Origin: Prillingera fragicola
Taxonomy: Eukaryota > Basidiomycota > Tremellomycetes > Trichosporonales > Trichosporonaceae
NCBI GenBank assembly: GCA_002335605.1
Contig: BEDY01000015.1
Span: 1 to 64,000 of the forward strand
Direction: 5' to 3'
DNA length: 64,000 nucleotides
Part shown: positions 3,304 to 26,959 of the stretch, piece after piece
How positions within the stretch are numbered: position 1 is the first letter of the stretch
Layout of the letters: each line of letters starts with the position of its first letter
Made by a program: the position numbers and the translations under genes
Notes under the pieces: model-generated
Seen by the model: only the letters and a program-made list of their open reading frames with translations
What the model was told of the DNA's origin: nothing
The model's database searches: none

Positions 3304-5250
3304 ATGACCGCAACTGCTTGCGATGCCTGTCGCTTGCGCAAAGTAAAGTGCTCATGGCTGGACGACTCGAAGTCCTGCAACTTCTGTTCGTCTATCGGCA
3401 TCTCCTGTACAACAGCCCCACGTCAGCGGCAGCGAGCCAAGAAGGTGGCCCGGGGAACAGCATCTACAGCTCCGCGCAAGCTCTCCAACTCGGCGGGTGC
3501 CAACGATACAAGTCGACCTGTGTCGCCCTCCCGGCGCCATCCAGCTGTCAAGTCGGCTTCGGAAGGAGCTCGGCTTCTGGGTGTTGCTAGCCTCACTCGC
3601 CAGGCTCTCGACAGTTGCATAGACAGCTATTTCTCGACTATCGGTCAAGTCTTGTCGCTGTCGCAACCGCAAGCACTGTTCACTCGCCGAATGCGCGTCC
3701 ACCTGTACTATGCGTCTGGTCTCGATATCCCTGCAGAGTTGGCCGACATTGCCCACGACCCTGCTAGCCGGCTGCTCATCTTGGCCGTTGCATGTCGCGG
3801 GGCCTTCTTCAGCCCCTACTCGGCCCTCGCCGACGAGTTGTACGCCCACTGTAGCAAGATTCTGTCCGAGCCAGACAGCGCAACGGTCGACTACATGGAC
3901 GCCATCGAGGCCATCCTCTTGCTGTCAGAGCTCACCATCCAGCCCAGACATGCAACGGCGACCGAACTGGATCCGCTTGGCAAGGGGACCGTAGTCGACC
4001 TCGCTCTATACCACAAGCTCCACATAGCCCCTCCCCCCGGCTCACCAGACTTTCAACGCCGGCTCGCCCTTTTCACACGTATCTGGGCCCACGACGCCAT
4101 TCGCTCAGCCAGCGCGCATACCTGCTACCGCATCACCGACGATGACTTTGGATGGCCCTTGCCGTCGAACGCCGAGGATGTGCCCTATGTCGCTCTCACT
4201 CTGGCAACACGGGAAATCTGCGCTACCCTTTTGAGCCCGCGCGCCAAGGGTCTCGGAATTACGGATGAGGTTGTTCAGCAGGCTCTGGACACTCTCGAAG
4301 GACTCAGATCGAGGATGCGGGTCACCATTGAATCTCTCAACGCATGTCTAGCCCCTGGTGCCACACCGGACAATGAGCCACTCTACCCGTTCAACGCCGG
4401 TAATCCACTGAAACCTATGGAGCAGCTGTTCATGCTGAGCACTCACAACTGGCTGCACCTCGTCATATGGGTTGCTGTGCAAGAGTCGATGGAGCGACAC
4501 CCGGGGCGCGTGAGCCCCTCTACTATGGTCAACGCCGAATCAGCCGCCGTCGCCGCGTGCGAGGACATGGCGACGCTCGCACAGATCAGCACAGCCCACA
4601 GCCTACATGTTCGCGGCCCTCGCAGCATTCGCAACCACATGGCGGCGTTTGCCCTCTTCCTAGTCCGCGTCTTCACCTCCATTGCCAGTCCCACAGTGGA
4701 GCAGTCGTCCCGCTACTTTGCACTCGCCGAGACGCTCAACTTTGGTGTGCGTAGCGCAACATACTATCCAGACTCGGACACGCTCGCCAACACGCTTCGT
4801 ATGGCGTTATATCGTGCAACTCGCATTGGCAGTAAGGATGCGGCACGGGTTGCCGAGCGCGGATTAGAAGGACTCCCGGAGGATTCAAACAATCACAACG
4901 TGCAGATGCCCACTTCTACCGAGTCTGTCGATCCTCTGGTGACTTCATGCCCGCCACCGACGCAGGCGGCTGCACCTGTCCCGCAACATCCGGATGCCGT
5001 GTTCCTGCAAGCCGACTTTACTGCCGCTACTGCCTCATGGACAAACGACGCAACCATTGTGGCCAGCCCCGTCGCCCAAGACGCGGCCAAGACCTGCAGC
5101 GTCCCACTCTTTTCAAACCCAGTCGACACATTCTGCCCACCACCGGTGTCAGACTCGTCGTCCCGTTCCACGTCCGTGTCGCTCGACTGGTCCGAGCTCA
5201 TGGACACTCTCAAGGGCTGTGGGTTCGAGCTGCCGCTGGGTCCGTTGTAG
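3304..5250 (+). CDS. Zn2Cys6 transcription factor, candidate cluster regulator
   Basis: A 648-residue intronless protein. The start at 3304 sits in a good context (GCCACC before ATG) directly ahead of the DNA-binding domain; the frame is open 10 codons further upstream but without benefit. The zinc binuclear cluster has Cys at 6, 9, 16, 25, 28 and 35 (C-X2-C-X6-C-X8-C-X2-C-X6-C), with the basic stretch RLRKVK between Cys9 and Cys16. A Lys/Arg-rich linker follows, then a long helical region from about residue 89 typical of the fungal-specific middle homology domain. The C-terminus is Ser/Thr/Pro-rich and ends in an acidic/hydrophobic patch that could activate transcription. It lies at one edge of the glycolipid-like cluster and is a clear paralogue of the protein encoded at 13759-15695. 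A role as nuclear activator of the cluster is inferred. Confidence 0.9.
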   Translation: MTATACDACRLRKVKCSWLDDSKSCNFCSSIGISCTTAPRQRQRAKKVARGTASTAPRKLSNSAGANDTSRPVSPSRRHPAVKSASEGARLLGVASLTRQALDSCIDSYFSTIGQVLSLSQPQALFTRRMRVHLYYASGLDIPAELADIAHDPASRLLILAVACRGAFFSPYSALADELYAHCSKILSEPDSATVDYMDAIEAILLLSELTIQPRHATATELDPLGKGTVVDLALYHKLHIAPPPGSPDFQRRLALFTRIWAHDAIRSASAHTCYRITDDDFGWPLPSNAEDVPYVALTLATREICATLLSPRAKGLGITDEVVQQALDTLEGLRSRMRVTIESLNACLAPGATPDNEPLYPFNAGNPLKPMEQLFMLSTHNWLHLVIWVAVQESMERHPGRVSPSTMVNAESAAVAACEDMATLAQISTAHSLHVRGPRSIRNHMAAFALFLVRVFTSIASPTVEQSSRYFALAETLNFGVRSATYYPDSDTLANTLRMALYRATRIGSKDAARVAERGLEGLPEDSNNHNVQMPTSTESVDPLVTSCPPPTQAAAPVPQHPDAVFLQADFTAATASWTNDATIVASPVAQDAAKTCSVPLFSNPVDTFCPPPVSDSSSRSTSVSLDWSELMDTLKGCGFELPLGPL

Positions 5251-5334
5251 ACCATAGATTTCTATTGTGCCAGGAATGCAGGCAAGTTGTATCGTTCAAG
5301 TTGATTCATACAAGTTCAGATCACTACAAGGGTT

Positions 5335-7020
5335 CTAAGGGTTGAGAATATCAGAGAGCCGCTCAAACACCGTTGCGCGGGCAGCGGCTGTGCGCTCGGA
5401 CACAATCTCTTTGTGCAAGGCTAGTGTGCGGGCAGTCACGTCATCAGACTCGCCGCCCTGGCAGAAGCTGAGATTATCCAGGACACTGCGTTGGAACTCG
5501 TTGAGTGGCTGATCACGCGCACTGTGGATGACCTTTGCGACACCATGCCCCTCGAGGAGCTTGGCTGTGAAAAGCTGGTCGCCAAAGAATGGGAAGACGA
5601 TCATGGGCTTGCCCGCCAAGAGCGCCTCAGTGGCACTGTTCCAGCCACCGTGCGTGAGGAAATAGCCGACATTGGGATGGTTGAGGACAGCGTTCTGGTC
5701 CACCCAGTTGCAGATATGAACCTTGCCCTTGGCGGCGGCGGCAGCGAGCTTGTCGCTCAGAGCTTTGACGCGGGCGGGGTCCACGCCGTGGAGCTCGGCG
5801 GTGAGCGACTTCTGGCCGCCCAGGGTCCAGACGAAGGGGACGCTGCCGAGCTGGTCGAGAAGGGTGTCAATCATGACCACGAGCTGCTCCGGGTTGGGAC
5901 GGAACAGTGTGCCAAAAGAGACGTAGAGTACTGAGCCCGACTTTTGAGTGTCAAGGAAGCTGTTGACGCCGGCCATTTTGTCAACATCAAGAGCACGCTT
6001 CTGGTCGGCTGCCTGGAGCATTACGGGTGCAATGGGGACGATGGGCTTCTGCACGTGCTTCTGAAGGTACTCGAGAATCGTATTCTCGACCGAACCGTAG
6101 GTGTTGATAAGCATGCCATCGCTGTGCTCGACGAGCCCCTGGATGTTGAGAAGCGAAGGGGTGACAGGAATGTCAATCAGATAGGCAGGGGCCTGGGGCG
6201 AGCACGCCTTGTCTTGGATAGGTTCAATGTTGGTGCCGGGGACATGATACTCTTGGGAACCAAAGCGGCGGCCAAACAGACGCTCCATTTCGTCCTTGTC
6301 GTCGGCGGCATGCCCAGTCTCGCGGCAGTGGCTCTCCCACAGTGAGGAAGTGTTGCCAAACCCTCCGATAGAACGGGGGCCAAGCAGACGAGTGCTGAAA
6401 TAGCTGCTGTGGTCGAAGAACGCAAACAGCTTGGTCTGCGGTGCAATAGCTTTGACCAGCTTGTCAATACCAAACGTCATCCAGTTACACACGACAGCCG
6501 TGACTGGAGCGCCAGCGGGCTTGATGCCGAAAGTGGGGAAGCCGTTGTCGGCAAGGAGGACCGGAAACTTCTCGCGGAAGTGAACTGCAATCTGGGTGGC
6601 CGATCGCATAGTCCTGAGCAACACGGTGTTCTTGTCGACACCCTTGGCCGAGTCGGTGAGTGCCATTGGCTCGTCCTCGGTGGTCACTTTGGATGCGAGG
6701 GGGTTCTCGCCGAGCGACTCGTCACCCATAGGGATAATACGCAGGCGCTCGCCAAATGAGGAGCGCCCACAGCCGGCTCGGTCAAGGTACTCGACCATGT
6801 CAGGCGAAGTGAGGAAGGAGATGACAGTGTCGGGGTCTGCGGTGAGGAGGGCAGAGGCAAAGTCCATCATGGGGGTAACATGCCCGACGGCAGGCCAGGT
6901 GACGAATGCCAGGTGGGTGACCTGTCGCGGCTTGGTGACTGACGGAGTTGCCTCGGTTGCCGAGTTGACGGACTCGGAGGCCATCCTGTGTGCGGGAAGT
7001 GGGTTGGCAACTGCAAGCAT
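5335..7020 (-). CDS. UDP-glycosyltransferase (GT1 family)
   Basis: A 561-residue family-1 glycosyltransferase. The C-terminal donor-binding signature is clear around residues 440-480: a WVDQ motif, then HGGWNSATEALLAGKP from about residue 457, then FFGDQ. The N-terminal acceptor domain begins near the HLAFVTWPAVGHVTP segment, the usual first strand and loop of GT1 enzymes. The frame is open to 7116, but a TATA box at 7136-7145 would put the transcript start near or below 7116, so the ATG at 7020 is preferred (the ATG 12 codons later is also possible). It converges with the upstream regulator (84 bp between stops) and shares a divergent promoter with acyltransferase 1. By context with P450, hydroxylase, acyltransferases and exporter, it likely glucosylates a hydroxylated fatty acid, as Ugt1 does in Ustilago cellobiose-lipid synthesis. 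The substrate is inferred. Confidence 0.92.
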   Translation of the reverse strand: MLAVANPLPAHRMASESVNSATEATPSVTKPRQVTHLAFVTWPAVGHVTPMMDFASALLTADPDTVISFLTSPDMVEYLDRAGCGRSSFGERLRIIPMGDESLGENPLASKVTTEDEPMALTDSAKGVDKNTVLLRTMRSATQIAVHFREKFPVLLADNGFPTFGIKPAGAPVTAVVCNWMTFGIDKLVKAIAPQTKLFAFFDHSSYFSTRLLGPRSIGGFGNTSSLWESHCRETGHAADDKDEMERLFGRRFGSQEYHVPGTNIEPIQDKACSPQAPAYLIDIPVTPSLLNIQGLVEHSDGMLINTYGSVENTILEYLQKHVQKPIVPIAPVMLQAADQKRALDVDKMAGVNSFLDTQKSGSVLYVSFGTLFRPNPEQLVVMIDTLLDQLGSVPFVWTLGGQKSLTAELHGVDPARVKALSDKLAAAAAKGKVHICNWVDQNAVLNHPNVGYFLTHGGWNSATEALLAGKPMIVFPFFGDQLFTAKLLEGHGVAKVIHSARDQPLNEFQRSVLDNLSFCQGGESDDVTARTLALHKEIVSERTAAARATVFERLSDILNP

Positions 7021-7835
7021 ATTGAAGGGGATCTGGCAGGTCAGTAAGCCGCTAATTCGTTGCTGCTCACTGTGTGCTGTGTGGTACGGGCAAATGGGAG
7101 TGGTGTGGAGAATCACTTGAACGTGAGGAGAGCACTTTATATATCGTTGATAGCTTCAGTGACTGGGAAACGTCCAGGTTAAACCGTCGTGCAGCAGGTG
7201 GGTATGATGCGGAGTCGCAACACAGTCGATGAGGCAGCAGTGAGACTGTGATCCAACCGAGAGTTGTCGGAGCGAGTATGGTGAGGTTGAGTAATGGTAT
7301 TGACCGAAAGTAGCTCGGAGACCCCATGCATCTCTAGGGACCCTCGTTGCTCTGCGGGGTTAGTTGAATCTATCTTCGGAAAGCGAAGGAGTAAACAGCC
7401 CTGACTAGGTGGATGGAGTGACCCCGAGAAAGAGTGTGAGATTCTCGGAGCCAACGAAACCGTCTTCCGAGTTTCCGAGATCAGATAACAAGATCACCGA
7501 TGCCAACTGAACGAGATGACCGACCGACCGTGTAGCAGTTGGCTGTCTGCTGGTTACCTCGCATTCTCCATTCTGCTTTCATGCCTGGAAGGATGAGCAG
7601 GGTTGACTCTAAGGATTCATGTTCTCGGAGGCTTCTCTCCCTACTGTACCTCCGAGACTCCGAGTGACAAAGACATGGGACGGCGCGCGTCTGCTCAATT
7701 AGCAGAGCATGTTCTACCAGAGGTCTGTGAAAGCGTCCTATGCGACCCTCTGGCGTTAAGACTCCAATGCTAAGACTACGATATATAACAACATGCTGAT
7801 ATTCGGTGCTGGCTCGCCACGTCAACAATTCCACA
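7021..7835. promoter_or_regulatory. Divergent promoter UGT / acyltransferase 1 with CCGAGA motifs
   Basis: This 815-bp region lies between two divergent start codons. A TATA box for the UGT is at 7136-7145 (minus strand, TATATAAA) and one for acyltransferase 1 at 7780-7788 (TATATAA), about 50 bp before its ATG. CCGAGA/TCTCGG cores occur at 7424-7429, 7443-7448 (inside a full ATTCTCGGAG, 7441-7450), 7475-7480, 7623-7628 (GTTCTCGGAG) and 7652-7657 (part of a CTCCGAG direct repeat, 7650-7664). CTCGGAG also occurs at 7314-7320. The same motif recurs in the other divergent promoters of the cluster. Function as a regulator binding site is inferred. Confidence 0.7.
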
Positions 7836-9294
7836 ATGCTTAGCACACTCAAAGTCACCCCAGTCCCGACCTTCGCTCCGCAGCCGATCAGTGACGTGCA
7901 GCAGCCGCCACTTCAAAATCGACAGCTGGTTGGCCTCGAGCGCCTATGGGGGTTTACCCATAAACACTGTGACGGGGCATATGACATGGCCACGTCGTTC
8001 ACCATGCCCCCTGACATCGCCGCCACGTACACCATTGCCGACTGGCGCAATGCTTGGGTGAGACTTGCCCTGGAGCAGCCATTGCTCCATATGCGCTTGA
8101 ATGCCGACAAAATGGTAATTGAGTCCATTCCCCCAGCGGCTCAACAAGGCTTCTGGAGCCGACGCACTCTGCGCACCTCGCCAGTGTGGGATAGTAGGTG
8201 GACTCTGCAGGAAGGTCTCGATCACTGTCTTGCGACCAACGACTTCTCTTCCCTGCAGATAACACTCTTCCATCTCCCGCAGAATACGCGTGTCAAGCAT
8301 ATTATCATCACTAATCCGCATGCGATTGCGGATGCAGGTACTGTCATTGCAATTATGAAACGACTCCGGATCCTCCTAGAGAGCGGAGGGTCGCTGGAGT
8401 ACGGCCGGTGGCACACCCAACCACCGCTTCCGCCGTCTATTTACACGGCGCTACAAACCACTCCCGATGACGGTAAACTTCAACAGTGGATGCAGCGAGC
8501 TACAACGGTACTGCGATTGTCACAACGAAAGTGAGTAATGCTGACAGCGCCGTGCAGCCGAGCCACGGCTTGTCGGTGGTTCCGCTGGATGCTTCACAGG
8601 CAGGACCACTTTCCGGCCAATGGAGGAAAGTACACACTTTCACTGCAGTCACATCGGCCACAGTCCTCCAATACTGTCGCAATGCTGGATTCAGCGTGAC
8701 GGCATTAGCATACGCTGCCCTGTGCCACGCTGTTGCCGCCGCCAATCCACCCGACACATGGCCAGTCAATTTCACCAACCCTTTACAGCCAATTTCAAAG
8801 CTCTCCGAGTGCACGAGTGACGACATTCTGTTCAGTGCATTGGCGGCGATGCCAATTAGCTGGAAGATGGACCAAACAGACAAGGTTGAAGACACAGCAC
8901 GCTTGATTTCTCAGGAGATTTGTGCAATGCGGTCCGACTGCATAGGTCCCCTGGACACCTACATCTCAACGATGCTCAGGTTCTTCCAGGCTCAACAGCA
9001 GGGCAAGATGCCCAGGCGAGTTATCAGCCTTGAGCAGCCGCTGACATTAACAGCAGCAAGACATCCTTCCCAACACTCAACTCTCTGGGCAACATCGGAA
9101 ATGATGTCGAGGGCATTCAAGTGACGACTCGGAACAATCTTCCCTCCGTAGGTGCACATGCTTACACAGTTTCAGGGCGCCTATCCCTCAGCTTAGCTTG
9201 GTGTCCTGGTCGGTTCTGCCAAAAGGAGCTTGACACGTTCTGGAATGCTTGGGTTGGATTTTTGGAGGCCGTGAAGGAAGAGCGATTGGATTAG
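7836..9294 (+). CDS. Acyltransferase 1 (HxxxD superfamily)
   Basis: A predicted 455-residue protein from three exons: 7836-8507, 8558-9019 and 9061-9294. HAIAD at residues 162-166 matches the HxxxD catalytic motif of the BAHD/condensation/alcohol-acyltransferase superfamily, and the last exon contains a conserved-looking SFPTLNSLGNIG segment. The ATG at 7836 follows a TATA box at 7780-7788. Intron 1 (50 nt) has a GTACTG donor, CTGAC branch and CAG acceptor. Intron 2 needs a weak GTTATC donor and an AAG acceptor to keep frame, so that junction is uncertain, or the gene carries a lesion there. It is divergent from the UGT. It likely transfers an acetyl or medium-chain acyl group to the sugar or lipid part of the cluster product. 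This is inferred by analogy with Uat1 or the MEL acyltransferases. Confidence 0.75.
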
Positions 9295-9960: not shown

Positions 9961-11166
9961 CTAGTAGCTGACACCCCAGGTGACAAGAGCATCATTCGGG
10001 TTCTGGGCGTCCTTTGCATCTTGCTCATCCTCGGCGTCGTTGAGCAGCTTGGCAGCGGCGGCTGAGGCTTCGTTGCCGAAAGCGTTCTGGACCTCGGCTG
10101 TCCAGGCCTTGTAAACGGTGTCCGTCTTGAGAATGGCATCGAGGAGACCAATGGGGCCAAAGTTCTCGTTGGTGTAAAAGTGATGCCAGTCGTGAGGGAG
10201 GGCCACGGTGAGAAAGGGGAGATTGTAGCCCGAGTGGTGTGCATGAGTGCCGATCAAGAGGGCGTGGAAGAACACCATCTGCAAGCACCAGTGGCCGCGG
10301 CAAATAACGAGACCAAGAATGATGGGAAAGAGGTTGGAGAAGTAGTACTCGAGCGGGTGGGCGTATGTAGCTGAAATGGCGGCGGGTGCCTTGAACTCGT
10401 GGTGCTGCTTGTGAATGTGCTTGTACAGAACACGGTGGTGGAGGGCTCGGTGTGCCGTGTAGAAGCCGACCTCCTGAGCGAGAAGGCAGACAACCCACTG
10501 GCCGATGAGGGAGTACCAGCGTGGCAGATCCTCATAGCGAGTCGAACCGCCGCGCCACTGGATGAGAGGGATGAAAATCATGTTGGAGATCGTGTTGACG
10601 ATAATCATGTTGAACAGCACATTGGGGACAGCCTTGGTAAACTCTCCCCAGCTGAGGTGCTTGTTGGGCTGCACTTTGTAGCGGGCGATCCATTGGGGAC
10701 GGAGGAGGTCGACACTGGTGAAAGCTCCGACAATGATGAATTGGCTGACGGTGAAGATGAGAGCACCGATACCACCCCAGATGGTCCACTGGCTGTGAGT
10801 GTTGAGCCAGGCATAGAATGGCTTGGCGTATGACGAGTTGTTGAAGGCAATGGCCATGCCAATAATGGCAATGTGCGGCGTGAGACCCTTGGCCTTCGTG
10901 TTCTCGTAGGCGCCGCGCAGGTAGCCCCACTTGCGCTTCGAGTACATTGTCTCTTCGACCTTGTCCAGGGTGCGAGCTTTGTATTGCAAGGAGGGAGCAA
11001 TCGGACAGCGACTGTCGCTGGATGTCTTGGGCTTCGATACCTCTGCCGATTGGGCGATGGCAGGATGAGGGTCGCTATCACCCTTGAGCTGAATGATGGC
11101 AGGTGTCTGGGGTGCCGACTTGGAGGCAGCACGGGCAGTGACGATGAGAGTGCTGGAGACGAACAT
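9961..11166 (-). CDS. Fatty acid hydroxylase / sterol desaturase superfamily enzyme
   Basis: A 401-residue, intronless membrane di-iron oxygenase. The metal-binding histidine boxes are HRALHH (239-244), HKQHH (252-256), HAHH (308-311) and HDWHH (325-329), followed by FYTNENFG. Hydrophobic segments lie around residues 95-115, 125-150, 180-205, 218-236 and 290-306, consistent with an ER membrane enzyme. The histidine spacing most resembles the C-4 methylsterol oxidase/fatty acid hydroxylase family. The ATG at 11166 is preferred over the upstream open frame because a TATA box lies at 11236-11244. It is divergent from the P450. In Ustilago cellobiose-lipid clusters two enzymes of this superfamily (Ahd1, Uhd1) hydroxylate fatty acids; only one is seen here. 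Hydroxylation of the cluster's fatty acid is the likely role, but a sterol substrate cannot be excluded. Confidence 0.88.
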
Positions 11167-11978
11167 GTTTGCTGAATACGGAGAAGGTGTGTTGACAGCT
11201 GGCTGACAATGTTCTGAAACTCGTCCTTGTTCATGCCTTTTATAGACGCCAGGCAAGGCCTCTGAGGCCGCCAGTCTAAAGAGAGGGCCCCGAGATCTCT
11301 TCACCACCGAGAGAGAGAGTGAGCTCGATGGCTTCAAGTTGTGACCGACAATGCATTGGTATCGTTCAGCAGTGTCACGAAATGGCTACAGGCATCTCGG
11401 TGCTCCAATCGTCCGAGACACACTGCATGATTGCATGATTGTAAGAGGCACCGATTTCGGCAACTAGGCCATGGTGCTATCAAGGCGGAAGTCCCATTTT
11501 CGGCCATGACTTGTCACCACCTCCGAGAATCATGCACCGAATTTTAGCCACTGTGCACCATGCCGAAGCCAAGGGCACGAGGTATGCAAGATCAACCCGA
11601 GCTTGGTCTGCCACTCCTCGGCAAGATATCGTTGAACTGCAGGTTCAACAGACCGATTCCTAGTCAACGCTTATCGGCGATTCCGAGGTTGAACGTCATC
11701 AGTAACATCTGTGCCGACATTCAACAAGTCGATGCATCTCTCACTACCGACACTCTGTTGCGTTCAATTTTAGAACTGGCCAATGTATTCTCGCAGCCGA
11801 CAACTCACTCACTGAAGTGATGGCCGAGTACAGCAGTACATGCACCCTCTCTTGCGCCATTGACGATGCACACTGTCAAGGTCAGCCATGGGTTGGTATA
11901 TAAGAGAGGTTATGCAACGAGGCAAGACCCAGTAACAAGCATCATTGCTCCTCAACTGTCAACCAACCAACTCTAGTC
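11167..11978. promoter_or_regulatory. Divergent promoter hydroxylase / P450 with CCGAGA motifs
   Basis: TATA boxes lie at 11236-11244 (minus strand, for the hydroxylase) and 11897-11904 (TATATAAG, for the P450). The exact 10-mer CTCCGAGAAT is at 11521-11530. Further CCGAGA/TCTCGG cores are at 11290-11295, 11307-11312, 11395-11400 and 11413-11418, and a weaker TTCCGAGG at 11681-11688. An 86-codon open frame at 11560-11820 has no recognisable features and is taken as spurious. Confidence 0.7.
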
Positions 11979-13649
11979 ATGTCCAGCCTTCGTCTTCTTT
12001 CAGTACCAGACGTGGTGTGCCGCTCGCCCATCAATGCGTCACTCGACGCTGTGCTCGGCCTCCCTCTGGATCACACCCCGTCCACCCACTTTAGCTCAAC
12101 AGCTAGCTTTGTAACACTTTCGCTCACGGCCCTTGCTCTACTCTTAACTCTTCTTTATACGCGTTACCCCAACAATGCCATTGGCACTCGCAACCGTCCC
12201 GACCTCAAAGGTCCCAAGGGCCACCCGATCATCGGCAACTTGCTCTGGGCCGTGAAAAACAAGGATCCTCTTGCCTGGCAAGTCTCTGCCCAGGAGCAGT
12301 ACGGCAACGGCTACACCTTCACTCTGCCCGGTTTGGGTCGTGTGGTCGACGTCTCGAGGCCAGACTGGATCGAACACGTTCAGAAAACCAACTTTTCCAA
12401 CTATGTCAAGGGCGACAGCTTCCACAACCAGATGAAGGACGTCTTGGGAGACGGCATTTTCACGGTTGACCGCGATCAGTGGAAGACACAGCGCAAGATT
12501 GCCGCACGAATCTTCACCGTCAACCGGTTCAAGGACTGCATTACCTCTGTTATCCGCCAGGATGTCGACCTACTCGACGGGATCCTTGCCAAAAAAGCCG
12601 CCTCGGGCGAAGTGTTCAACATGCAGGATCTCTACTTTCGCTTCACCCTTTCGAGCTTTGTCAAAATCGCATTCAGCCAGGACACTGGCGCGCTTTCCAA
12701 CCCCGACGTTCCGGATGAGTTCGGTGAGGCATTTGGCTTTGCCCAAAAAGTCCTGGACATGCGATTTGTGCAGCCACTCTGGTGGCTTACCGAGCGCTAC
12801 AACGCGACTGGCACCAAGATGCGCGCCGCTCGCAAGGTGATCGACGACTTTTTGGAAGAGATTGTCAGCAAGCGCCTCGCCGATGCCAAGGAGGGAAAGC
12901 GTACTGTCGGCGAAGACGGCGAGGAGCGAGGAGAAGATCTCCTAGATCTCTTCATTGCGTACCGCAGCAAGGACGGATCGAGTCTCGACCAGCATAGCCT
13001 GCGCGACGCCATTCTCAACCTTCTGATCGCAGGCCGCGACACCACAGCCGAGGCCTTGTCTTGGATGACCTGGCACGTCATCACCAAGCCCAACATGCGC
13101 ACATACCTACAGCAGGAGATCGACGAGGGGCTTGAAGACACTGGAAGCCTCGACATTGACTACGGAGACTTCAAGCAACACAGTCGCAAGCTCGCATGCA
13201 TTCACGAGACCCTCCGCCTCCACCCTTCCATCCCCAAGAACATTCGCTGCGCGGAGACGGACGATGTGCTTCCTAATGGAGGCCCTCGTATCGAAAAGGG
13301 CGATATCGTCATTTACTCTGACTGGGCAATGGGCCGTAACCCCAACGTCTGGGGAGACGATGCGCGCGAGTTCCGCCCCGAACGCTGGATCGACGAGGAC
13401 GGCAACTTTAAGCGCGTCTCGCCAAACAAGGCCCACTTCTTCTCAGCAGGGCCGAGGGCGTGTCTCGGGTCTACACTCGCCCAATATGAGATTAGCCAGG
13501 TCATGAACAGCGTGTTCGGCAAGTACAACCTCGAGCTGGTTGACTTGGGACCCAAGAAGTCGGCGTCTGCGCACACCGTGCCCGACTATCTCAATTCGCT
13601 CACCCACCCCATGAAACGTCCTCTCATGGTGCGTGCCACTCGGCGCTGA
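11979..13649 (+). CDS. Cytochrome P450, CYP52/CYP86-clan fatty acid hydroxylase
   Basis: A 556-residue microsomal P450 in a single exon. A hydrophobic anchor (about residues 43-61) precedes a PKGHPIIGN hinge. The I-helix oxygen-binding motif AGRDTT begins at about 351, the K-helix ETLR at about 410, FRPERW follows, and the heme loop [10 protein letters not shown] (488-497) carries the thiolate Cys495. The segment after ETLR (HPSIPKNIR, then VLPNG) is characteristic of the CYP52/CYP86/CYP704 clan that hydroxylates long-chain fatty acids at or near the omega end. It is divergent from the hydroxylase gene, with its own TATA box 75 bp upstream of the ATG. By analogy with Ustilago Cyp1/Cyp2 it would supply the omega- or subterminal hydroxyl that is glycosylated. 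Regiochemistry cannot be read from sequence. Confidence 0.93.
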
Positions 13650-13758
13650 GCGCCACTCCCAGTTGTAGCGGAAACAGTTTTATGAGAGCGAATCTATAGA
13701 ATTCTATGAAAACAAGTGATTTGGATACAAAGAAGCACAGCCGACCGGCGACTTATGT

Positions 13759-15695
13759 TCAGAGAAACGGCCCACCAATACCGCACGAGGCGAGAAAGTC
13801 GAACAACCCTTGATCGTCCACCTGGAGACTGGCCAGGGATGAATCAGCACCCATGTGAGGCGTAGTGGAAGCAGTGGGGAGCAAGACAGAGGTCTGAGTA
13901 GCAGTTGACGACCCATGCGGCAGAGGGGGTCGAGACTGGAACGGATTCCCCTTGGCTGGCGAGGCACTGGTGGCTGACTGAGCCCACCATGGCTCACCGC
14001 TGGGTAGCAAGGATGTGTATGACGGCTCGGGAGCAACATTTGAGAGCAAGTTTGCAAACAGATCAGGTGTAGAGATCTGCACGTCGCTGGCTTCAGACAC
14101 CGTGTGGGACGTCAGGAGCGGAGCCGACCTTGGCGGCGAGTCTGGGGTGATGGACCTCATGTTCCGGCTAGCGCTATAGACAGCGTCGCGGAGTACGTGT
14201 GCGAGCCTCTCTGAATCGCGATAGATGGTGGCACTGCGCACTGCACTTCCGAGAGTCTCCGCCAGTGCAAAGTACTGTACCGCATCGGGCGAACTTGTGG
14301 GTGGGTCGGTGAGCTTGCGGACAAGAAAAAGGATAAAGGCCGCAAGGTCGTCGCGCACTGCGCGAGGAACAGACTTGAGCAAGTTGTGCTTTGTGACAGC
14401 CTGCGCTAGGAGTGCCATGCGCTCTGTAGCTCGCATTGTCGCTGCCTCTACACTAGCAATGACATGAGGCGCCATTTGGTTGTCCTTGGCGGCAACCCAG
14501 CAGACGAGGTAGAGCAAGTTGCGTGTCGACGAGAGAAAAAGCTGCTCGCACGAGACAGAACCAGGGTCCGAGCTGTCGGTGTCCAGGGCGTCGAGCGCAG
14601 AAATGGCAGCCCACAGGTCGGCCTCGCGGATGCCCACAGTCTTGACCCGGACGCTCAGCATCGAGCTGCAGATCTGCCGCGCTACCCGTGCCAGACTCTG
14701 GTGCGGGTCCTGTGACGCACTGCATGGAAACGCCCAGCCGATGTTAACCTCGGCGAGCCGACAGGGCAGCCTCGCCGATGCCATGCGGATAGCGTCTAGC
14801 TCCCAGAGTCGCCAGAAGAGTGTCTCGCGCCGCTCTTTCTCCGGATCCTTTTCGCCCAGGGCAGAGGGAAGATTGAGCTTGTGATACATTGCAAGGTCGA
14901 TGGCGAATCCCTTTCCTAGAGCGTCAAGCTTGAGAGGCGTGAAAGTAGGTTGGTCCTGTCCTTGGGTTGGCTGCGATGGAACGGCGCTTTCTAGTAAATT
15001 GACAGCTTCAATTATATCCAGGACATTGTCCTCCAAGTAATCGCGCTCCTGTGTGAGAGCACGGCAGTGATCGTACAGCGCCTGCCCGACAGTGTGATGG
15101 GCACTAAGCGGTGCGCCGAGGCATGCAACGGCGAGAACCAGCAGCTCCGACGCACCTTGCACGTCTACGATGTCGTTCGGGATATCGGCCCCGGCTGTGT
15201 CGTAGAGGAGCACGCGGACCCGGTCTAGAAACACGTCGCGAGGCTGAGACAGTCGGTAAGCCGGCTCTATGGTCGTGAAGAACGTGTCGATGCAGTCATC
15301 GAGGGCTTCTCGAGTCAAGCCTGGTACCCCGAGGAGACAGGCGCGACTGGCGTTTGCAGTCAGAACGACTTGCGGTGCTTTCTGAACAGTCAGCGGTGGC
15401 CCAGACAGGTGCTCACTACCACCGAAGCAGCATCCGACACAGTACGCGTTCGGCTCATGAGAGGCGGCTTGTCGCGACTGGATGGTCGTTGCTCATACTG
15501 GTGTGGCGGCGGCTGCGGAGGGTGCTGGACCTCTTGCCCTTGCTCTTGGTGTTGCTGTTGCTGCTGCAAATCGTCTTGCTGCTGCTGAAGTAGCTGGACG
15601 ATGCGTTTCCCTCGTTTATGCTTCCCGTGTGGTCGAGGAATATTCTCTCTGCCGGGAGACGATGGGAGGGATCGCTTACGCTGTGGTGTAGACAT
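13759..15695 (-). CDS. Paralogous fungal regulator lacking a visible zinc cluster
   Basis: A predicted 633-residue protein from two exons (complement of 15417-15695 and 13759-15381). The 35-nt intron has a GTGAGC donor, CTGAC branch and CAG acceptor, phase 0. From the exon junction on it aligns with the regulator at 3304-5250: LLGV, LTREALDDCID, then YFALAETL and VRSAT followed by Y-x-DS, and a CG-ending acidic C-terminus. This is the fungal-specific middle homology region. In place of a zinc cluster, the N-terminus is basic (KHKRGKR) and then Gln-rich (two polyQ tracts within residues 37-53). No CX2CX6C pattern is visible in the upstream 300 bases on this strand. It could act as coactivator, modulator or competitor of the full-length paralogue, or it could have a missed 5' exon. 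The role is inferred. Confidence 0.78.
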
Positions 15696-16420: not shown

Positions 16421-17407
16421 CTAGTGACGGCCGTAGCCACCATACTGGTGCCCAGGACCTGATCCAAGTGACGCAATCACCAGGAATGGCATGCTGTCCT
16501 TGTCCTTCTTGCGGTCCTTCTTGTGCTTGCTGCTGTGGCTAGCCGAAGCGCACATCATGGCAATGTCACCAGTTAATGGCTCCGGGTGCAATCCCACGTG
16601 CTTTGCCGTCGCGCGCTCGCCCTTGCATACGGCGTACACGTCCAGTCCACGAGGACCAAAGAAGCGCTCCTGCCAGGTCTCGATGGTCTCAACAACAAGC
16701 GGCTCGTTGCGGCGTGCCATTCCCTTAACGATGGCCTTGGTGACAAAGTAGCCAGTGATGCCCATGTGCATCGTCAATGGCGCCACGTTGGCAACCACCT
16801 GCCCGGCGCCACCGACCTTGCCGGCCGTAAAGACGTCTTCCAGGAAGCGCGCAAAGTCTGCGGAGCTGACGTCATGAGCCACCATGAGTGGGCCAAAGTA
16901 GCTGGGTTTGAACCCAGCGCCGATGAGGCCAGTCTTGCCATCACTCTGGAGAATCACGGGCTGGAAGGGCTGGCGAGCACCAGGAGACAGACGCGGCTGG
17001 CGCTGGAAGCTGCGGGGCTCGGGCTCGAAGGGCTTGCCGGCTGAACGACTCAGGCGCGACTTGACACGAAGGGCAAAGTCAATCTTGGGCAGAGCTCGGA
17101 GTTGCAGGTCCTCCTGGGTTGGGGTCCATGCGTCGTTGTGTGCAAGAGGATTGTCGAAGCGCGCCTTGTTCTGGGCATAGATGGAGCCCTTGGGGATGCC
17201 GTCGTCGTCCTCCCCACGGGCGGCATGCTGCTTGTCGGCCATAGGAGGGGAGTAGGACTGGGGCGGCGAGGCAGTCTGGCGCTGAGGAGGAGGGGGAAGA
17301 TGGCTATACTGTGGGCAGGCTTGGGGTGCCGTGGCATACTGCTGCCCGTAGGGGTGGTTGGGGGCGTTCCAACTTTGCTGAGCGGGGTAGGTCATGGTGT
17401 AAGACAT
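16421..17407 (-). CDS. Conserved uncharacterised fungal protein inside the cluster
   Basis: A protein of 328 residues if translation starts at 17407; a second ATG is 4 codons later, and the frame is open to 17521 but a TATA-like TATATAAC at 17531-17539 argues for the later start. The N-terminal ~60 residues are Pro/Gln/Tyr-rich and probably disordered. The C-terminal half holds a folded-looking domain: HDVSSADFARFLEDV, then MHMGITGYFVTKAIVKGM, then WQERFFGPRGLDVY. It ends in a Lys-rich stretch (KHKKDRKKDKD) and a Gly/Tyr tail. Similar C-terminal domains occur in uncharacterised proteins across fungi (from memory; no function known to me). It is divergent from acyltransferase 2 and shares that motif-containing promoter. 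It could be co-regulated with the pathway or be a bystander. Confidence 0.75.
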   Translation of the reverse strand: MSYTMTYPAQQSWNAPNHPYGQQYATAPQACPQYSHLPPPPQRQTASPPQSYSPPMADKQHAARGEDDDGIPKGSIYAQNKARFDNPLAHNDAWTPTQEDLQLRALPKIDFALRVKSRLSRSAGKPFEPEPRSFQRQPRLSPGARQPFQPVILQSDGKTGLIGAGFKPSYFGPLMVAHDVSSADFARFLEDVFTAGKVGGAGQVVANVAPLTMHMGITGYFVTKAIVKGMARRNEPLVVETIETWQERFFGPRGLDVYAVCKGERATAKHVGLHPEPLTGDIAMMCASASHSSKHKKDRKKDKDSMPFLVIASLGSGPGHQYGGYGRH

Positions 17408-17944
17408 TCTAGTTGTCAGCTCAGCGCCGAGCTGGAGGACGTACTCAAAGGTTGTGGTTCTTGTGGTGGTGGCGAACGAGCTTGCAAGGTTGAAGTTGGT
17501 GAGGGCATGTTTGCTGGCCAAGTCGTATGTGTTATATACAAGGTGACGGCTGGTTGCTGAACGATGGTGAAGAGATAAAAGAAGAAGAGATAGTCAGTAG
17601 TGACGCGCATGATGGTCCGTGAGCCTCCGAGAATTGTTCGGAGCTGTTGCCAGGCACCATCGAATCGCGTGGTCGACGATTGTGGTGATGAAGGGGCAAG
17701 ACCGCGAGAATGCGGACGGCGACGCTGACGTCCAGGTCCACGGAGGTTGGGACATTCTCGGAGTCCGACCTTGATTTCGGTCCATAGTCTCCGAGAATTA
17801 TCTTCATTGTCCAGACCGCTCTCTTGTCGTGGACTTGGTAAACTTCACACATTCTACGAATACAGCTCGTACATTCATATATCTCGCCATGCTCACTGTT
17901 CTCGAGACCCAGATACTTGCTTCCTGTCGTTACACTCGCCCACC
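17408..17944. promoter_or_regulatory. Divergent promoter of uncharacterised gene / acyltransferase 2
   Basis: Three exact copies of the 10-mer occur: CTCCGAGAAT at 17625-17634, ATTCTCGGAG at 17754-17763 and CTCCGAGAAT at 17789-17798. The last two form an inverted pair separated by 25 bp. A TTCGGAG is at 17637-17643. A TATA-like element lies at 17531-17539 for the minus-strand gene, and a weaker CATATATC near 17876-17883 for acyltransferase 2. Confidence 0.7.
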
Positions 17945-21128: not shown

Positions 21129-21900
21129 GGTGAATGCAGGTCGGTGATGTGCGAGGTGGAGATTGATGTTGCTGGGGGTTCAACCCTGGGGAGGGACCCT
21201 CTTTTATATCTTGGCGATATGCACAAATGGTGGTGTAACCCCCAGACATGGTCATGCAGCGTCAGCAACAGTTGTTCTCGGACAGACATCAATGTCGGTG
21301 GCTTGAGGTCAAGATGCCGAGTTGACGCCTCCGAAATCTGCATCAAGCTTGCTGGATACTTTGCCATGTGGCCACCAACGTCTCTGCAGTATGCATGGTC
21401 GTAAATTGGTCTGCCAGGTGCTTGCATTGGGCAGCTATTACCAGGGGGCTGACAACCCAAGCATTGTGCAGTGTTCTGGCTGACGACAGCAGGTGAAGGC
21501 CGTGCCTGGCGGCGGTCACTCGGAGGCCGAGAATCACCACCCACCGAGAATCCTTGTCTTCATCCTCATCGGTCAACTCTCTCATTCTATTCGTCAAATC
21601 GCACCCACATTATCTCGGCTCGCAATGCTTACATGCACTTCTCTACTATACAGGTCAGGTACGTCCCGATTCAAGCAACCATGCCGAAGCACCTTCATCC
21701 TCGGCTACACTACCCCGGAGCACCGGGGGCAATCTCGCACTCCTCTCAGTCCATCGACACGGGCATCTACAGCGGCTGGTGGGGCAGAGACGGTCGACTG
21801 TGGTGACACGTATATTCAATTATCGCAAGTGCTGTCGCACCCCATATAATAGGATACACCTGTCGACCTAAACGTCCCCCTCGGTCCCAGAAAGCCAAAG
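21129..21900. promoter_or_regulatory. Divergent promoter thioesterase-like / ABC exporter
   Basis: CCGAGA/TCTCGG cores lie at 21276-21281, 21527-21532 (GGCCGAGAAT, directly after CTCGGAG at 21519-21525), 21544-21549 (CACCGAGAAT) and 21613-21618. A near match, CTCCGAAAT, is at 21329-21337. TATA elements: 21201-21210 for the thioesterase-like gene (minus strand) and CATATAATA at 21843-21851 for the exporter. Confidence 0.65.
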
Positions 21901-24900
21901 ATGTCCACCACCACCACATCTTCAGCATCGTCGTTGCACAAGGACGACGCCAGCTCAGTCAGCACAATCCTGGAGAAGCCCAAAGTCACGGCTATTACCA
22001 AACCCATCGACAGTAATGAGGTTACCGACACCACAAAGCCCGTTGGCTTCATCGCGCTCTTCCGCTTCGCAACCGGCTCCGAGATCGCGCTCAACATCCT
22101 CGCCTGCATCCTCGCCGCCGGCGCCGGTGCCGCCCAGCCCGCAATGACCATCATCTTCGCCAACCTCACCAACCTGTTCACCAGCTTTGGTATCGCAAAC
22201 CGTACCATTGCTGAGCACGGGCTGACGCCCGAGCTGTCGGAGGAACTCGATGTCGCGTCGCGGGCGCTAGTCAAGGAGGCAGGACATTGCTCGCTGTATC
22301 TCCTCGCCATTGGAGTGGGCACCTTTTTGTGCACATACGCGTACATGCTCATCTTCAACTACACGAGTGAAGCGCAAAGCAAACGTTTGCGAGAGAGGTA
22401 TCTCGCCGCGGTCCTCCGCCAGGAGGTACGTCCAGTTATTGATTGTGCAGCTGCTGACAACCAGATTGCGTGGTTTGACGATGTTGGTGCTGGCGAGGTC
22501 GCGACGCGTATCCAGACCGACTGCCTCATTGTCCAGACGGCTATCAGTGAGAAGATTGGCATTTCGGTCCAGTACCTCAGCTCCTTTGTCACTGGCTTTG
22601 TCGTTGCTTTCGCTCGCAGCCCGCGACTCGCCGGTGTCCTCACGGCTATCTTGCCCATCATCCTGATCGCTGGCGGTTTTGGTACGTGTCAGTTTGAAAG
22701 TTGGGTACTGACTCCGTAGTCGGTATCTTTGAGACCAAGTATCAGACAGCCGCCCTGGGATTCGTCTCCAGGGCAGGCAGTGTTGCCGAGGAGGTCATTT
22801 CGAGTATTCGCACAGTCCAAGCATTCGCCACCACCAAGGTCCTGGGGGGTCGGTTTGACAAGTATGCCGACAGCAGCCGCGCGGCGGGTATCCGTGGATC
22901 CTTCGGCATCGGCTTGGGCCTGGCGGTACTTTGTAAGTGAGCCCACTCTGACAACAACTGACCTGCTAGATTTCACAGTCTACATGCCCTATGCCTTGGC
23001 CTTTGTCTACGGCGGCAATCTCGTCGCGCACGGCAAAGCCGACGCGGGCACTGTTCTCAACGTGTTCTTTGCCATTCTCATCGGCTCGTTCTCAATCGCA
23101 ATGCTGGCACCGACTCTCCAGTCCGTCTCCAAGGGACGCGCCGCCGCCGCCAAGCTGTACGAGACCATCGACCGCATCCCTTCCATCGACTCGGGGGATT
23201 CGTCAGGCCAGAAGCCTGCCCACACAGAGGGCGATATTGCTTTGACCAATGTCAATTTCCACTACCCTTCCCGCCCCAATGTGCCCATCCTCAGGAACCT
23301 CAGCACGACTTTTGAGGCTGGCAAGGTCTGCGCCCTGGTCGGCGGCAGTGGTAGTGGTAAATCGACCATTCTGTCCCTCATTGAACGGTTTTATGATCCG
23401 CTACCTGGCTCAACCGTGACGCTCGACGGCACGGACGTTCGCAAACTGAACCTCAAGTGGCTTCGCCAGCAGATCGGCTTGGTCTCCCAGGAGCCGACCC
23501 TCTTTGCCACGACAGTCCGCGGGAACGTCGAGCACGGCCTGGTCGGTTCCCAATGGGAGACAGCCTCAGCCGAAGACCGTCTCGCCCTCGTGCAGGCTGC
23601 TTGCGTAGCCGCCAACGCCGACGGTTTCATCGCCAACCTGCCGCTGGGTTACGACACTGTTGTCGGCGACCGCGGCATGCTGCTCAGCGGAGGCCAGAAG
23701 CAACGCATTGCCATTGCGCGCGCCATTGTTTCAAACCCTCGCATTCTGCTGCTGGACGAGGCGACGAGTGCGCTCGATGGCCACAGCGAGCGGGTCGTCC
23801 AGGACGCCCTCGACAAGGCCAGTGTCGGGCGCACTACCATTGTGGTCGCGCATCGTCTTGCTACTGTCCGGAATGCGGATAAGATTCTCGTCATGGACGC
23901 CGGCGACGTTGTTGAAGAAGGCACACACAACAGCCTGCTGGAGCTCAACGGCACTTATGCCAAGCTCGTTCAGAACCAGGAGCTCCAGGAGCTTGCCGAG
24001 TCAGAATCTTCCGACAATGATGATCTGGCAGTCCTACCTACGACCGAGGAGAAGAACCAGATTGAGCGTTGCACATCCGCCACCTCGATCTCGAGCCGGA
24101 TCCTCAAGCAGCGTGCCACCGATGAAGTTTCCGAGGCACCAATGGGCTTTTGCGCAATCTCCTACCGTCTGCTCAAGATGAACAAGCCTTTCTGGAAGTG
24201 GTACACAGCCGGCGCCATTGGATCTGTCGCGTCAGGCATGGTTTACCCCGCCATGTCAATTCTGTTTGGCAAGGCAATCGCCGACTTTGAGCTCCCTCCC
24301 GACACGATCCGGGCTGCGCTGAATCGCAAAGCACTGTGGTACTTTATCGTAGCGATTCTGGCCGCCATCAGTCGCTTTGCCAACTTTTGGATGTTTGCGC
24401 GTACCGGCTACGAGCTTGCTGCCACACTGCGTAAGCGCTTCTTTGCAGCTGTGCTCCGTCACGACATTGAGTGGTTTGACGACGAGAAGAATGGTACCGG
24501 TGCCATCACTGCCAACCTCTCTGCGCAGCCCCAGAACGTCCAGGGTCTTTTTGGTGTAACCCTCGGCGCGATCTTGTCGGCCCTCACCACTCTCGTCGGC
24601 GGCTGTATCATTGGACTGGCTTACGGTCCAATTCTATCGCTCATCGGCATTGCGTGCATTCCCATGATTATTTCGAGCGGGTACATCAGGCTGCGCGTCG
24701 TGGTGACCAAGGAAGAGAAGACAAAGCAGTGGCACGCCAGCAGCGCTCAGATGGCTTCTGAGGCGGCGGCGGCTGTGCGTACTGTTGCCTCGCTCACCCG
24801 GGAAGCAGACATTGGCACTCTGTACGCCAAGTCGCTCGAGGAGCCGATGCGAATCTCGAACCGCGTCGCTGTCCGCGCCCAGGCGCTGTACGCTGCATCG

Positions 24901-26032
24901 CAAGGTGTCATGTTTCTGGTCATTGCACTCGTCTTCTACGTCGGCGCTGTATGGATTGCGAGCGGCAAGTATAACACGGCCATGTTCTACACATCCCTCA
25001 CTTCTGTGGTACGTACATTGCGATGGGTCCCTGGCTGACAACAGATCTTTGCAACTCTTGAGGCCGGCGACGTTTTCCAGTACGTCCCGGACGCCTCCAA
25101 GGCCGTGTCCGCCGCTCGATCCATCTTCCACGTCCTGGACAACGTCCCTGCCGTCGACGCTGAGTCTGCCGAGGGCATCATTCTCGACGCAGCCCAAGTC
25201 AAGGGCCACATCACCCTGTCTGACGTCCACTTTCGCTACCCCACGCGCCCCGGCGTCCGCGTTCTGCGCGACCTCACCATCGACGTCCCGGCCGGCAAGT
25301 ACGTGGCACTCGTTGGACCATCTGGCTGTGGCAAGAGCACATCCATCGGCCTCTTGGAGCGATTCTATGACCCACTGGCAGGCAGAGTCACCTTGGACGG
25401 AACCGACATTCGCAAGCTCAACGTCGCGAGCTATCGGTCTCAGCTTGCTCTTGTCTCGCAGGAGCCCACGCTGTACACTGGCACTATCCGGTCCAACATT
25501 GTCCTTGGTGCGACTGGAGACGTGACGGAAAAGCAACTTGTGCAAGCCTCCACTGAAGCCAACATTCATGACTTTATCACGTCTCTACCTGACGGATACG
25601 ACACCGAGGTCGGAGGCAAGGGCTCCCAACTGAGTGGAGTGAGTCTCCCCCTTAACCCGCCCGCGCCAGAAACTGACACTCGCAGGGCCAGAAACAGCGT
25701 ATCGCCATAGCCCGCGCGCTCGTGCGCAACCCCAAGGTGCTTCTCCTGGATGAAGCCACGGCCGCGCTTGACAGCACGAGCGAGCGCGTCGTCCAGGCTG
25801 CACTGGACAATGCGGCCAAGGGTCGGTCGGTCATTGCCATTGCGCACCGGTTGAGCTCGATCCAAAACGCCGACATCATCTACTTTATCTCAGAAGGCCG
25901 TGTGCTCGAAAAGGGCACGCATGCCGAGTTGCTGGCGCGTAAGGGGGCTTATGTGAGTGTGACTGTCTGTGTGGCGGTGCTGACTTTCAGTTCGAGCTCG
26001 TGCAGTTGCAGAGTCTGAGCAAGGTTGACTAG
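21901..26032 (+). CDS. Full-size ABCB/MDR-type ABC exporter
   Basis: A predicted 1298-residue protein from seven exons: 21901-22425, 22465-22681, 22720-22932, 22970-25008, 25045-25638, 25686-25952 and 25991-26032. Introns are 36-47 nt with CTGAC branch sites. Topology is TMD-NBD-TMD-NBD. NBD1 has Walker [10 protein letters not shown] (from about 443), signature LSGGQKQR (about 557) and Walker [16 protein letters not shown]2 has Walker [10 protein letters not shown] (from about 1089), LSGGQKQR (restored by splicing intron 5) and [12 protein letters not shown]. Both NBDs look catalytically intact. The last exon is only 42 nt. This matches P-glycoprotein-like plasma-membrane exporters. Given its position it most likely secretes the acylated glycolipid, as proposed for Atr1 in the Ustilago cellobiose-lipid cluster. 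A general drug-efflux role is the alternative. Confidence 0.95.
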
Positions 26033-26107
26033 ATGTGGGCCGGCCGTTGATAGAGTTCAAACCGTGTTGTACAGTATAATCTGCATGCCCATAGTCTTCT
26101 TGCGCGA

Positions 26108-26959
26108 CTATTCAAACATCTCACGCGTCTCGCGCGCAACCAGTTCTGGCTCAGAGCACAGAATGAAGTGACTACTGTTCTCTGCCGGAACATACTTTGC
26201 GCCGGTCCGCGCACACCTGGCCTTGTGGGCCTCGATGATTTGGTCGCGCAGGCTCCCCGGCGTCCTGTCCTTTTGCGCCGAGATGATGGTCATCTTGACA
26301 TGCGACACATCCGGGTCGCCGTCGCCCTTGAGGCTCTCGAGTCCCGGCACAAAGTTCCACAGCTCCCAGCTCGCGGCGCGCGCAGCCTTGTCGTGACCGG
26401 CCCCCTCGACGACAGCAGTGACATATGGCTCGGGCAGCGGCTGGACGTTTTGCCTGAGTGCCCTGCCGAGTGCACCGGTCCACGACCTCGGGCGGAGCAT
26501 CCAGCTGCTTTTCCAGTGCGCGCGCACAACCTCGGGCCGAAAGTAAAAGGCACACTCCTCGTCGCTGCCGTCAACGAGCACAAGACCCATGAGGGGCACT
26601 TTTTCATCCGAGGCAAGCTCGCCAGCTGCACACCGGATCATGGGGGCGCCATAACTGTGGCCCACAAGGACGAGGCTGTCGTACCCATCCTGAGCGCGGA
26701 TGACGGCCAGCAGATCAGCGACGAGGTGTGGGAGCGACCGATTGTCCGACACACCCGTGCTGGTGCCAAAGCCCGCGCGGTCATAGCCCACCACGCGAAC
26801 CGTGGACGAAGCCAACTCCTCGGCTACCGTGCCCCAGTAGGCGGCATTCTGGCCCAGGCCAGACTCGAAGATGACGAGGTTCCGACCAGTGCCGAGGGTG
26901 AATGTCGTGAGCTGGCCGGAAGGGGCGGTGACTGTCGAGGTATTGTTGAGGAAAGACAT
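26108..26959 (-). CDS. Alpha/beta hydrolase
   Basis: A 283-residue protein. The nucleophile elbow GHSYG places Ser102. The oxyanion strand LVIFESGLGQN is near residues 27-37, the VVGYDRAGFG strand near 52-61 is typical of the fold, and the likely catalytic His lies in SSHFIL near the C-terminus. The start at 26959 is the first ATG adjoining the fold; the frame runs open to 27181, but that extension overlaps the neighbour's 3' flank and is Cys-rich without a domain. It converges with the ABC exporter (75 bp between stops). Its upstream region lacks the CCGAGA motif, so cluster membership is uncertain. It could be an esterase trimming acyl groups or an unrelated hydrolase. Confidence 0.85.
   Translation of the reverse strand: MSFLNNTSTVTAPSGQLTTFTLGTGRNLVIFESGLGQNAAYWGTVAEELASSTVRVVGYDRAGFGTSTGVSDNRSLPHLVADLLAVIRAQDGYDSLVLVGHSYGAPMIRCAAGELASDEKVPLMGLVLVDGSDEECAFYFRPEVVRAHWKSSWMLRPRSWTGALGRALRQNVQPLPEPYVTAVVEGAGHDKAARAASWELWNFVPGLESLKGDGDPDVSHVKMTIISAQKDRTPGSLRDQIIEAHKARCARTGAKYVPAENSSHFILCSEPELVARETREMFE

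Follow-up and report, generated by a model that had tools for sequence, protein, structure and literature searches.

We analysed the first 64 kb (positions 1 to 64,000, hereafter the window) of contig C15 (BEDY01000015.1, 205,916 bases) from the 20.25-Mb, 17-contig genome of the basidiomycete Prillingera fragicola (Trichosporonales), and a candidate glycolipid gene cluster within it. The window has a GC content of ~58%. A first-pass annotation had placed eleven genes in 3304-26959, and gene models at the same coordinates confirmed them: TF1, UGT, AT2, AHD, CYP, TF2, DUF4646, BAHD, TE, ABC and ABH (Table 1). Eight of the eleven are single-exon models, and eight short introns, each containing a CTGAC branch-like motif, are spread over AT2, TF2 and ABC, the AT2 and ABC structures being manual splice models. 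Four divergent gene pairs have common promoters (UGT-AT2, AHD-CYP, DUF4646-BAHD and TE-ABC). The cluster starts ~3.3 kb from a probable chromosome end, because the repeat in the first kb recurs at or near the ends of eight other contigs, and its location is therefore probably subtelomeric. A 115-base tandem repeat of 2.4 copies lies at 375-653 within this sequence, which is common to many contig ends.

Table 1. Features of the cluster and its promoters in window coordinates
Feature	Position	Strand	Details
Subtelomeric repeat	375..1100		copies at or near ends of C1, C2, C3, C4, C5, C7, C9, C11
TF1, Zn2Cys6 regulator, 648 aa	3304..5250	+	single-exon model; Zn_clus 25.5 bits, cut-off 21
UGT, UDP-glycosyltransferase, 561 aa, Ugt1 relative	5335..7020	-	UDPGT Pfam match
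Divergent promoter UGT-AT2	7021..7835		five CTCGGAG cores, three being TCTCGGAG (12-base sites 7441, 7621, 7648)
AT2, small HxxxD acyltransferase-like protein, 455 aa	7836..9294	+	3 exons; introns 8508-8557, 9020-9060; HAIAD motif
AHD, FA_hydroxylase-superfamily di-iron enzyme, 401 aa, candidate alpha-hydroxylase	9961..11166	-	FA_hydroxylase 69.4 bits
Divergent promoter AHD-CYP	11167..11978		one ATTCTCGGAG (11521-11530), weaker match at 11787
CYP, cytochrome P450, 556 aa, Cyp1 relative (predicted terminal hydroxylase)	11979..13649	+	p450 237 bits
TF2, TF1 paralog without recognised zinc cluster, 633 aa	13759..15695	-	2 exons; intron 15416-15382
DUF4646 protein, 328 aa	16421..17407	-	PF15496 85 bits
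Divergent promoter DUF4646-BAHD	17408..17944		three ATTCTCGGAG sites (17625, 17754, 17789)
BAHD-type acyltransferase, 514 aa	17945..19489	+	Transferase PF02458 58 bits; HWIVD motif
TE, acyl-CoA thioesterase-like (4HBT_3), 381 aa	19983..21128	-	4HBT_3 and 4HBT_3C above cut-off
Divergent promoter TE-ABC	21129..21900		core CTCGGAG only (21519), weak motif matches 21523, 21540
ABC, full ABCB-type exporter, 1311 aa	21901..26032	+	6 exons; ABC_membrane x2, ABC_tran x2; introns 22682-22719, 22933-22969, 25009-25044, 25639-25685, 25953-25990
ABH, alpha/beta hydrolase, 283 aa	26108..26959	-	Abhydrolase_6 55.6 bits; GHSYG nucleophile elbow

Pfam calls were counted when above the curated cut-off of each family. 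On this basis Zn_clus, UDPGT, FA_hydroxylase, p450, DUF4646, Transferase (PF02458), 4HBT_3 with 4HBT_3C and Abhydrolase_6 were found, and the ABC gene, scanned in three pieces, gave two ABC_membrane and two ABC_tran domains and contains two Walker A motifs, LSGGQ and Walker B. NCBIfam gave no match above its cut-offs for the seven cluster proteins scanned. The UGT, P450, hydroxylase, thioesterase-like protein, exporter and alpha/beta hydrolase named in the first-pass annotation thus stand, and the eleventh gene has to be corrected to one for a DUF4646 protein. Of the two acyltransferases it counted, BAHD is above cut-off, whereas AT2 has its HxxxD motif and Pfam matches that all stay below threshold (PapA_C, E 0.012). 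Likewise, of its "Zn2Cys6 regulators" TF1 carries Zn_clus but TF2 does not. In a sequence search of the Protein Data Bank (PDB), BAHD matched BAHD enzymes of plants at E 2e-8 and gave a weak match to trichothecene 3-O-acetyltransferase (E 0.04). No PDB sequence matched TE at E <= 1, and the TE structure predicted without an alignment was poor (pLDDT, the predicted local distance difference test, 33.6). Genome searches with BAHD, AT2 and TE returned only the query gene itself.

In the P450 search, 7990 candidates were scored and 1463 passed, the best 120 of which were listed. Among these, the nearest named matches to CYP came from Pseudozyma (Anthracocystis) flocculosa (63%), Sporisorium scitamineum (60%) and T. 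frezii (60%), the best named smut match having an E value of 7e-215; a V. palustris P450 reached 64% over 78% of the query, and named P450s outside the smuts were at most 45% identical. The S. scitamineum P450 is 597 residues long, and its longest contig has 706,248 bases, as does that of the UGT match from this species (577 residues, 'um12340'). Given that cyp1 and ugt1 of this species are CDU25005.1 and CDU25009.1 (um12340) (PMC7673458; literature statements here and below follow the available portions of the cited papers), we took the P450 match to be the Cyp1 homolog CDU25005.1, because of its length and the contig size common with the Ugt1 match. In a midpoint-rooted tree of 36 rows (35 chosen from the 120 listed matches plus the window protein), CYP clustered with the smut Cyp1 rows at a support of 100/99, in a set that includes one long-branch V. 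palustris row. At 60-63% identity to the smut Cyp1 rows, CYP was assigned to the Cyp1-type terminal fatty-acid P450s, and the closest other P450 in its own genome is 31% identical to it.

From 8000 scored candidates, the UGT search listed 34 proteins. The full-length named fungal relatives among them were from Vanrija pseudolonga (65%), V. palustris (38%), P. flocculosa (38%), S. scitamineum (Ugt1, 35%) and P. hubeiensis (32%), with a best named smut match at E 8e-100 and identities of 34-39% to the named smut Ugt1 rows. Other database copies of UGT were 33-79% identical, and the remaining matches listed were mostly plant UGTs with partial cover. In a midpoint-rooted tree of 19 proteins chosen from the 34 matches plus the window protein, UGT joined the smut rows at 82/94, and we assigned it to the Ugt1 type. 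This tree has long branches, and its remaining rows are plants, one further protein and a chytrid. Elsewhere in the genome, the UGT query gave one weak 60-residue match. Smut Ugt1 attaches both glucoses (PMC7673458), and a single UGT would therefore be enough for a cellobiose lipid. The first-pass annotation had pointed to the ustilagic-acid pathway of Ustilago maydis and had allowed that the P450, UGT and acyltransferases might instead best match unrelated pathways. For the P450 and the UGT, searches and trees agree with the former and speak against the latter, matching them to smut Cyp1 and Ugt1.

AHD has intact histidine motifs (HRALH, HKQHH and HDWHH). Its search gave 72 matches, one being the window's own protein, and the closest named was PFL1_06793 of P. 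flocculosa (51%), whose source name begins 'Related to alpha-hydroxy'; the best named smut match had an E value of 8e-110. Alpha-hydroxylation has been assigned to Ahd1 by a published mutant (PMC10098057). The predicted AHD structure (pLDDT 78.8) had no PDB match at E <= 0.001. Relatives of AHD and of CYP were found on identically sized contigs in three cases (11,878, 16,111 and 4,588 bases), and the simplest explanation is that each pair shares a contig, which points to AHD-CYP linkage conserved elsewhere. A second hydroxylase in the P. fragicola genome, 39% identical to AHD and also subtelomeric, lies at C1:6058-6888 with three stops inside in six-frame reading. It adjoins a long open reading frame (ORF; L024:985-4653) that looks reverse-transcriptase/integrase-like by eye, and no pathway neighbours were recognised by eye in C1:1-20000.

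The cluster promoters share a sequence element. Compared with the rest of the window, they are enriched in words of the ATTCTCGGAG family. Across six cluster promoters the form TCTCGGAG was counted 7 times, compared with a mean of 0.14 and a maximum of 2 in 500 shuffles. These fall in three of the four divergent promoters (three in UGT-AT2, one in AHD-CYP and three in DUF4646-BAHD). The exact 10-mer ATTCTCGGAG has 47 genomic copies (20 for the reversed control), five of them in the cluster, with no more than two copies per 25 kb outside it. The Poisson chance of at least five copies in 25 kb is 5e-9 uncorrected and ~0.003 after multiplying by all canonical 10-mers. Zn2Cys6 proteins bind a CGG triplet, and because ATTCTCGGAG contains this triplet, TF1 is the natural candidate factor for it. 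No spacing of CGG-N-CCG sites was clearly enriched in the cluster promoters. The only other pair of ATTCTCGGAG copies within 25 kb lies at C1:3933261 and C1:3933626 (365 bases apart), and one further copy lies on the cluster's contig at C15:176459; possible unlinked members of the regulon could be found there.

TF2 is 40% identical to TF1 over 428 aligned positions (E 1e-85), and it showed no Pfam match and no zinc-cluster pattern by eye in the three minus-strand frames of 15330-16430. Contig C11 holds a TF1 paralog that keeps its zinc cluster (52% over residues 4-648; C11:526606-528579) and, ~12 kb off, a second, TF2-like match of 39% (C11:513126 onwards, 513387-514736) with one TGA inside. 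The latter had no Zn_clus in the 371 residues scanned and shares with TF2 the basic N-terminal stretch HKRGKRIV-LLQ. Apparently, a zinc-bearing and a zinc-less paralog stand near each other twice in this genome. The C11 pair was considered as part of a second glycolipid cluster and rejected, since the UGT, AHD, BAHD, AT2 and TE queries had no match on C11; ORFs recognised by eye at C11:495-545 kb include those for a different P450 and for transporter-like, polygalacturonase-like and amidase-like proteins.

Vanrija (Cryptococcus) humicola, which belongs to Trichosporonales, makes 16-(tetra-O-acetyl-cellobiosyloxy)-2-hydroxyhexadecanoic acid, with a reported mass of 781 (PMC3725880), and Trichosporon porosum also produces cellobiose lipids (PMC10589195). 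Genome sequences exist for V. humicola JCM 1457 and A. porosum (PMC7026411). We reasoned that the V. humicola structure would need a terminal hydroxylase, a 2-hydroxylase, a glucosyltransferase used twice, one or more acetyltransferases and an exporter, but no second P450, beta-hydroxylase or medium-chain synthase. These are the enzyme classes that the cluster would supply, and the "distinct or simpler acylated glycolipid" foreseen in the first-pass annotation fits this known lipid. Taken together, the closeness of the P450 to Cyp1 and of the UGT to Ugt1, the lack of close paralogs and the shared promoter element support the reading that the product of the cluster is an acetylated cellobiose lipid, which is an antifungal sugar lipid of detergent-like nature, and we consider this likely. 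In the proposed route, CYP would hydroxylate palmitate from the ordinary fatty-acid synthase (FAS) at the terminal carbon, AHD would introduce the 2-hydroxyl, and UGT would place two glucoses on the terminal oxygen to give a cellobioside. BAHD and AT2 would then acylate, most likely acetylate, sugar hydroxyls before export of the product by ABC, while TE might supply or clear acyl-CoA at one step, and TF1, perhaps with the zinc-less TF2, would switch the genes on via ATTCTCGGAG. We infer each of these reactions, the product, the factor binding the element and the role of TF2.

Judged by its sequence, the locus is a cluster of the cellobiose-lipid type whose enzyme set is reduced and whose regulators differ. 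It shares a Cyp1-type P450, a Ugt1-type UGT and an FA_hydroxylase-superfamily enzyme with the ustilagic-acid cluster of U. maydis and S. scitamineum. Unlike that cluster, it has one P450 and lacks Cyp2, Fas2 and the C2H2 regulator Rua1, while it possesses a Zn2Cys6 regulator with a zinc-less paralog, DUF4646 and alpha/beta-hydrolase genes and a subtelomeric site. As annotated earlier, a single P450 was found among the eleven cluster products; none was found among eight further window ORFs scanned, the genome not having been searched for Cyp2. Pfam scans found no FAS among the cluster products, and the one fungal FAS acyl carrier protein (ACP) domain detected genome-wide, on C5, makes a second Fas2-type fatty-acid synthase unlikely, in keeping with the earlier statement that no Fas2 was visible. 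A Rua1-type C2H2 regulator was not recognised in the cluster (TF1 being Zn2Cys6 and TF2 without Pfam match), the rest of the genome not having been searched. Because Fas2, Cyp2 and Rua1 were sought in the cluster and not found, it is not a ustilagic-acid cluster. Mannosylerythritol-lipid clusters are not known to contain a P450, and this cluster type does not match a locus with a P450, a UGT and an ABC exporter. The genes of the mannosylerythritol-lipid cluster are Emt1, Mac1, Mac2, Mat1 and Mmf1 (PMC12715866). Compared with the flocculosin cluster, the closest named hydroxylase (51%) and, by score, P450 (63%) among the matches listed are from P. flocculosa, with the UGT at 38% and the hydroxylase relative on a different contig from the other two. 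Flocculosin is additionally substituted with a medium-chain hydroxy acyl group. Its cellobiose unit bears one acetyl more than that of ustilagic acid (PMC10098057).

Several observations weigh against an acetylated cellobiose lipid as the product. In the AHD tree (25 chosen from the 72 matches plus the window protein; midpoint root), the AHD clade has a support of 100/98 with P. flocculosa as its only named member, and wider relatives are named sterol-methyl-oxidase or FAXDC2-like. None of the 72 hydroxylase matches was named as S. scitamineum Ahd1, and the P. flocculosa relative lies on a 142,412-base contig, apparently unlinked to the UGT and P450 on a 1,975,278-base contig. For these reasons, 2-hydroxylation by AHD is uncertain. 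V. pseudolonga has a UGT match, yet it has no P450 among the best 120 of 1463 and no AHD relative among the 72 hydroxylase matches. The BAHD-type acyltransferase, the second small acyltransferase, the ABC exporter and an orf1-sized protein match the ustilagic-acid cluster by class or size only (listed gene lengths of 513 residues for U. maydis Uat1 and 382 for orf1, versus 514 for BAHD and 381 for TE). As for the element, it was chosen post hoc from these promoters, the background used for comparison contains coding DNA, ATATAT and other AT-rich words are likewise enriched, and TCTCGGAG has no site at the TF1, TF2 and TE-ABC promoters, the last having weak matches only. The weakest links are AHD regiochemistry, acyltransferase specificities and the membership of DUF4646 and ABH.

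The uncertainty about AHD raises the possibility that this cellobiose-lipid cluster yields a new congener, differing from the V. humicola lipid by a hydroxylase acting elsewhere on the chain or an acyltransferase adding a longer acyl group. Neither search nor tree showed AHD to be an Ahd1 ortholog, and two distinct acyltransferase-like proteins plus a thioesterase-like protein are perhaps beyond the needs of acetylation alone. However, the genome showed no second FAS ACP hinting at a dedicated medium-chain synthase, and the known lipid of Trichosporonales has acetyls and the 2-hydroxyl (PMC3725880); we regard a new congener as possible but rather unlikely. More doubtful still is a related glycolipid without cellobiose, a monoglucoside or sophoroside of a hydroxy fatty acid. 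The number of sugars and their linkage could differ, since UGT shares just 34-39% identity with the named smut Ugt1 rows. Producers of sophorolipids, however, rely on two UGTs, and no such set was found here: the cluster has one UGT, and the rest of the genome gave one weak partial match. Cellobiose lipids are, moreover, made within the same order (PMC3725880, PMC10589195), which makes this alternative improbable. Finally, a mere gathering of unrelated lipid-modifying and detoxifying genes in a subtelomere, to which the position and the unclear roles of ABH and DUF4646 might point, is very improbable given that one known pathway contains the enzymes closest to CYP and UGT, that the genes form four divergent pairs with the same rare element in three of the four shared promoters, and that AHD-CYP linkage seems to recur elsewhere.

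The P450 and UGT trees separate the smut sequences from the window protein and its other database relatives (midpoint roots; long branches for UGT), a pattern that fits either horizontal transfer or ancient descent with loss. We tentatively propose, at less than even confidence, that a cellobiose-lipid core is common to two subphyla, the smuts and Trichosporonales, under unrelated regulation, here by a Zn2Cys6 activator acting on ATTCTCGGAG as a pair with a paralog whose DNA-binding domain has been lost, and that this core, comprising at least AHD, CYP and UGT, either passed from one lineage to another or is the remnant of an ancient cluster that has disappeared almost everywhere else. The locus offers a case for how one glycolipid pathway reached two subphyla under different regulators. 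Our search of the open-access literature, with subscription papers mostly outside it, found no gene cluster for the V. humicola lipid and no account of this cluster in Trichosporonales. A review describes cellobiose-lipid clusters as retrievable from genomes and names Trichosporon and Cryptococcus strains as producers (PMC7888453), and others may therefore have seen a Trichosporonales cluster. New here are the ATTCTCGGAG promoter element, the zinc-less TF2 beside TF1 together with the similar pair on C11, and the subtelomeric position. The cellobiose lipids of Trichosporonales are natural antifungals of published structure, and the genetic work found covers mainly smut fungi. With neither a second fatty-acid synthase nor a second P450, a compact cluster of this kind would allow a direct genetic test and perhaps a simpler production route.

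At the right edge, no cluster promoter motif was listed between ABH and the next gene, and membership of ABH in the cluster is uncertain, as is that of DUF4646. To the right of ABH follow a 1144-residue ORF without Pfam match and then an acyl-CoA oxidase gene at 31525-33591, near the cluster's right flank, read as two ORFs carrying complementary Pfam domains. Further along the window of this fungus, a glycosyltransferase family 18 match (40.9 bits, cut-off 28) appears at 62163-62936.

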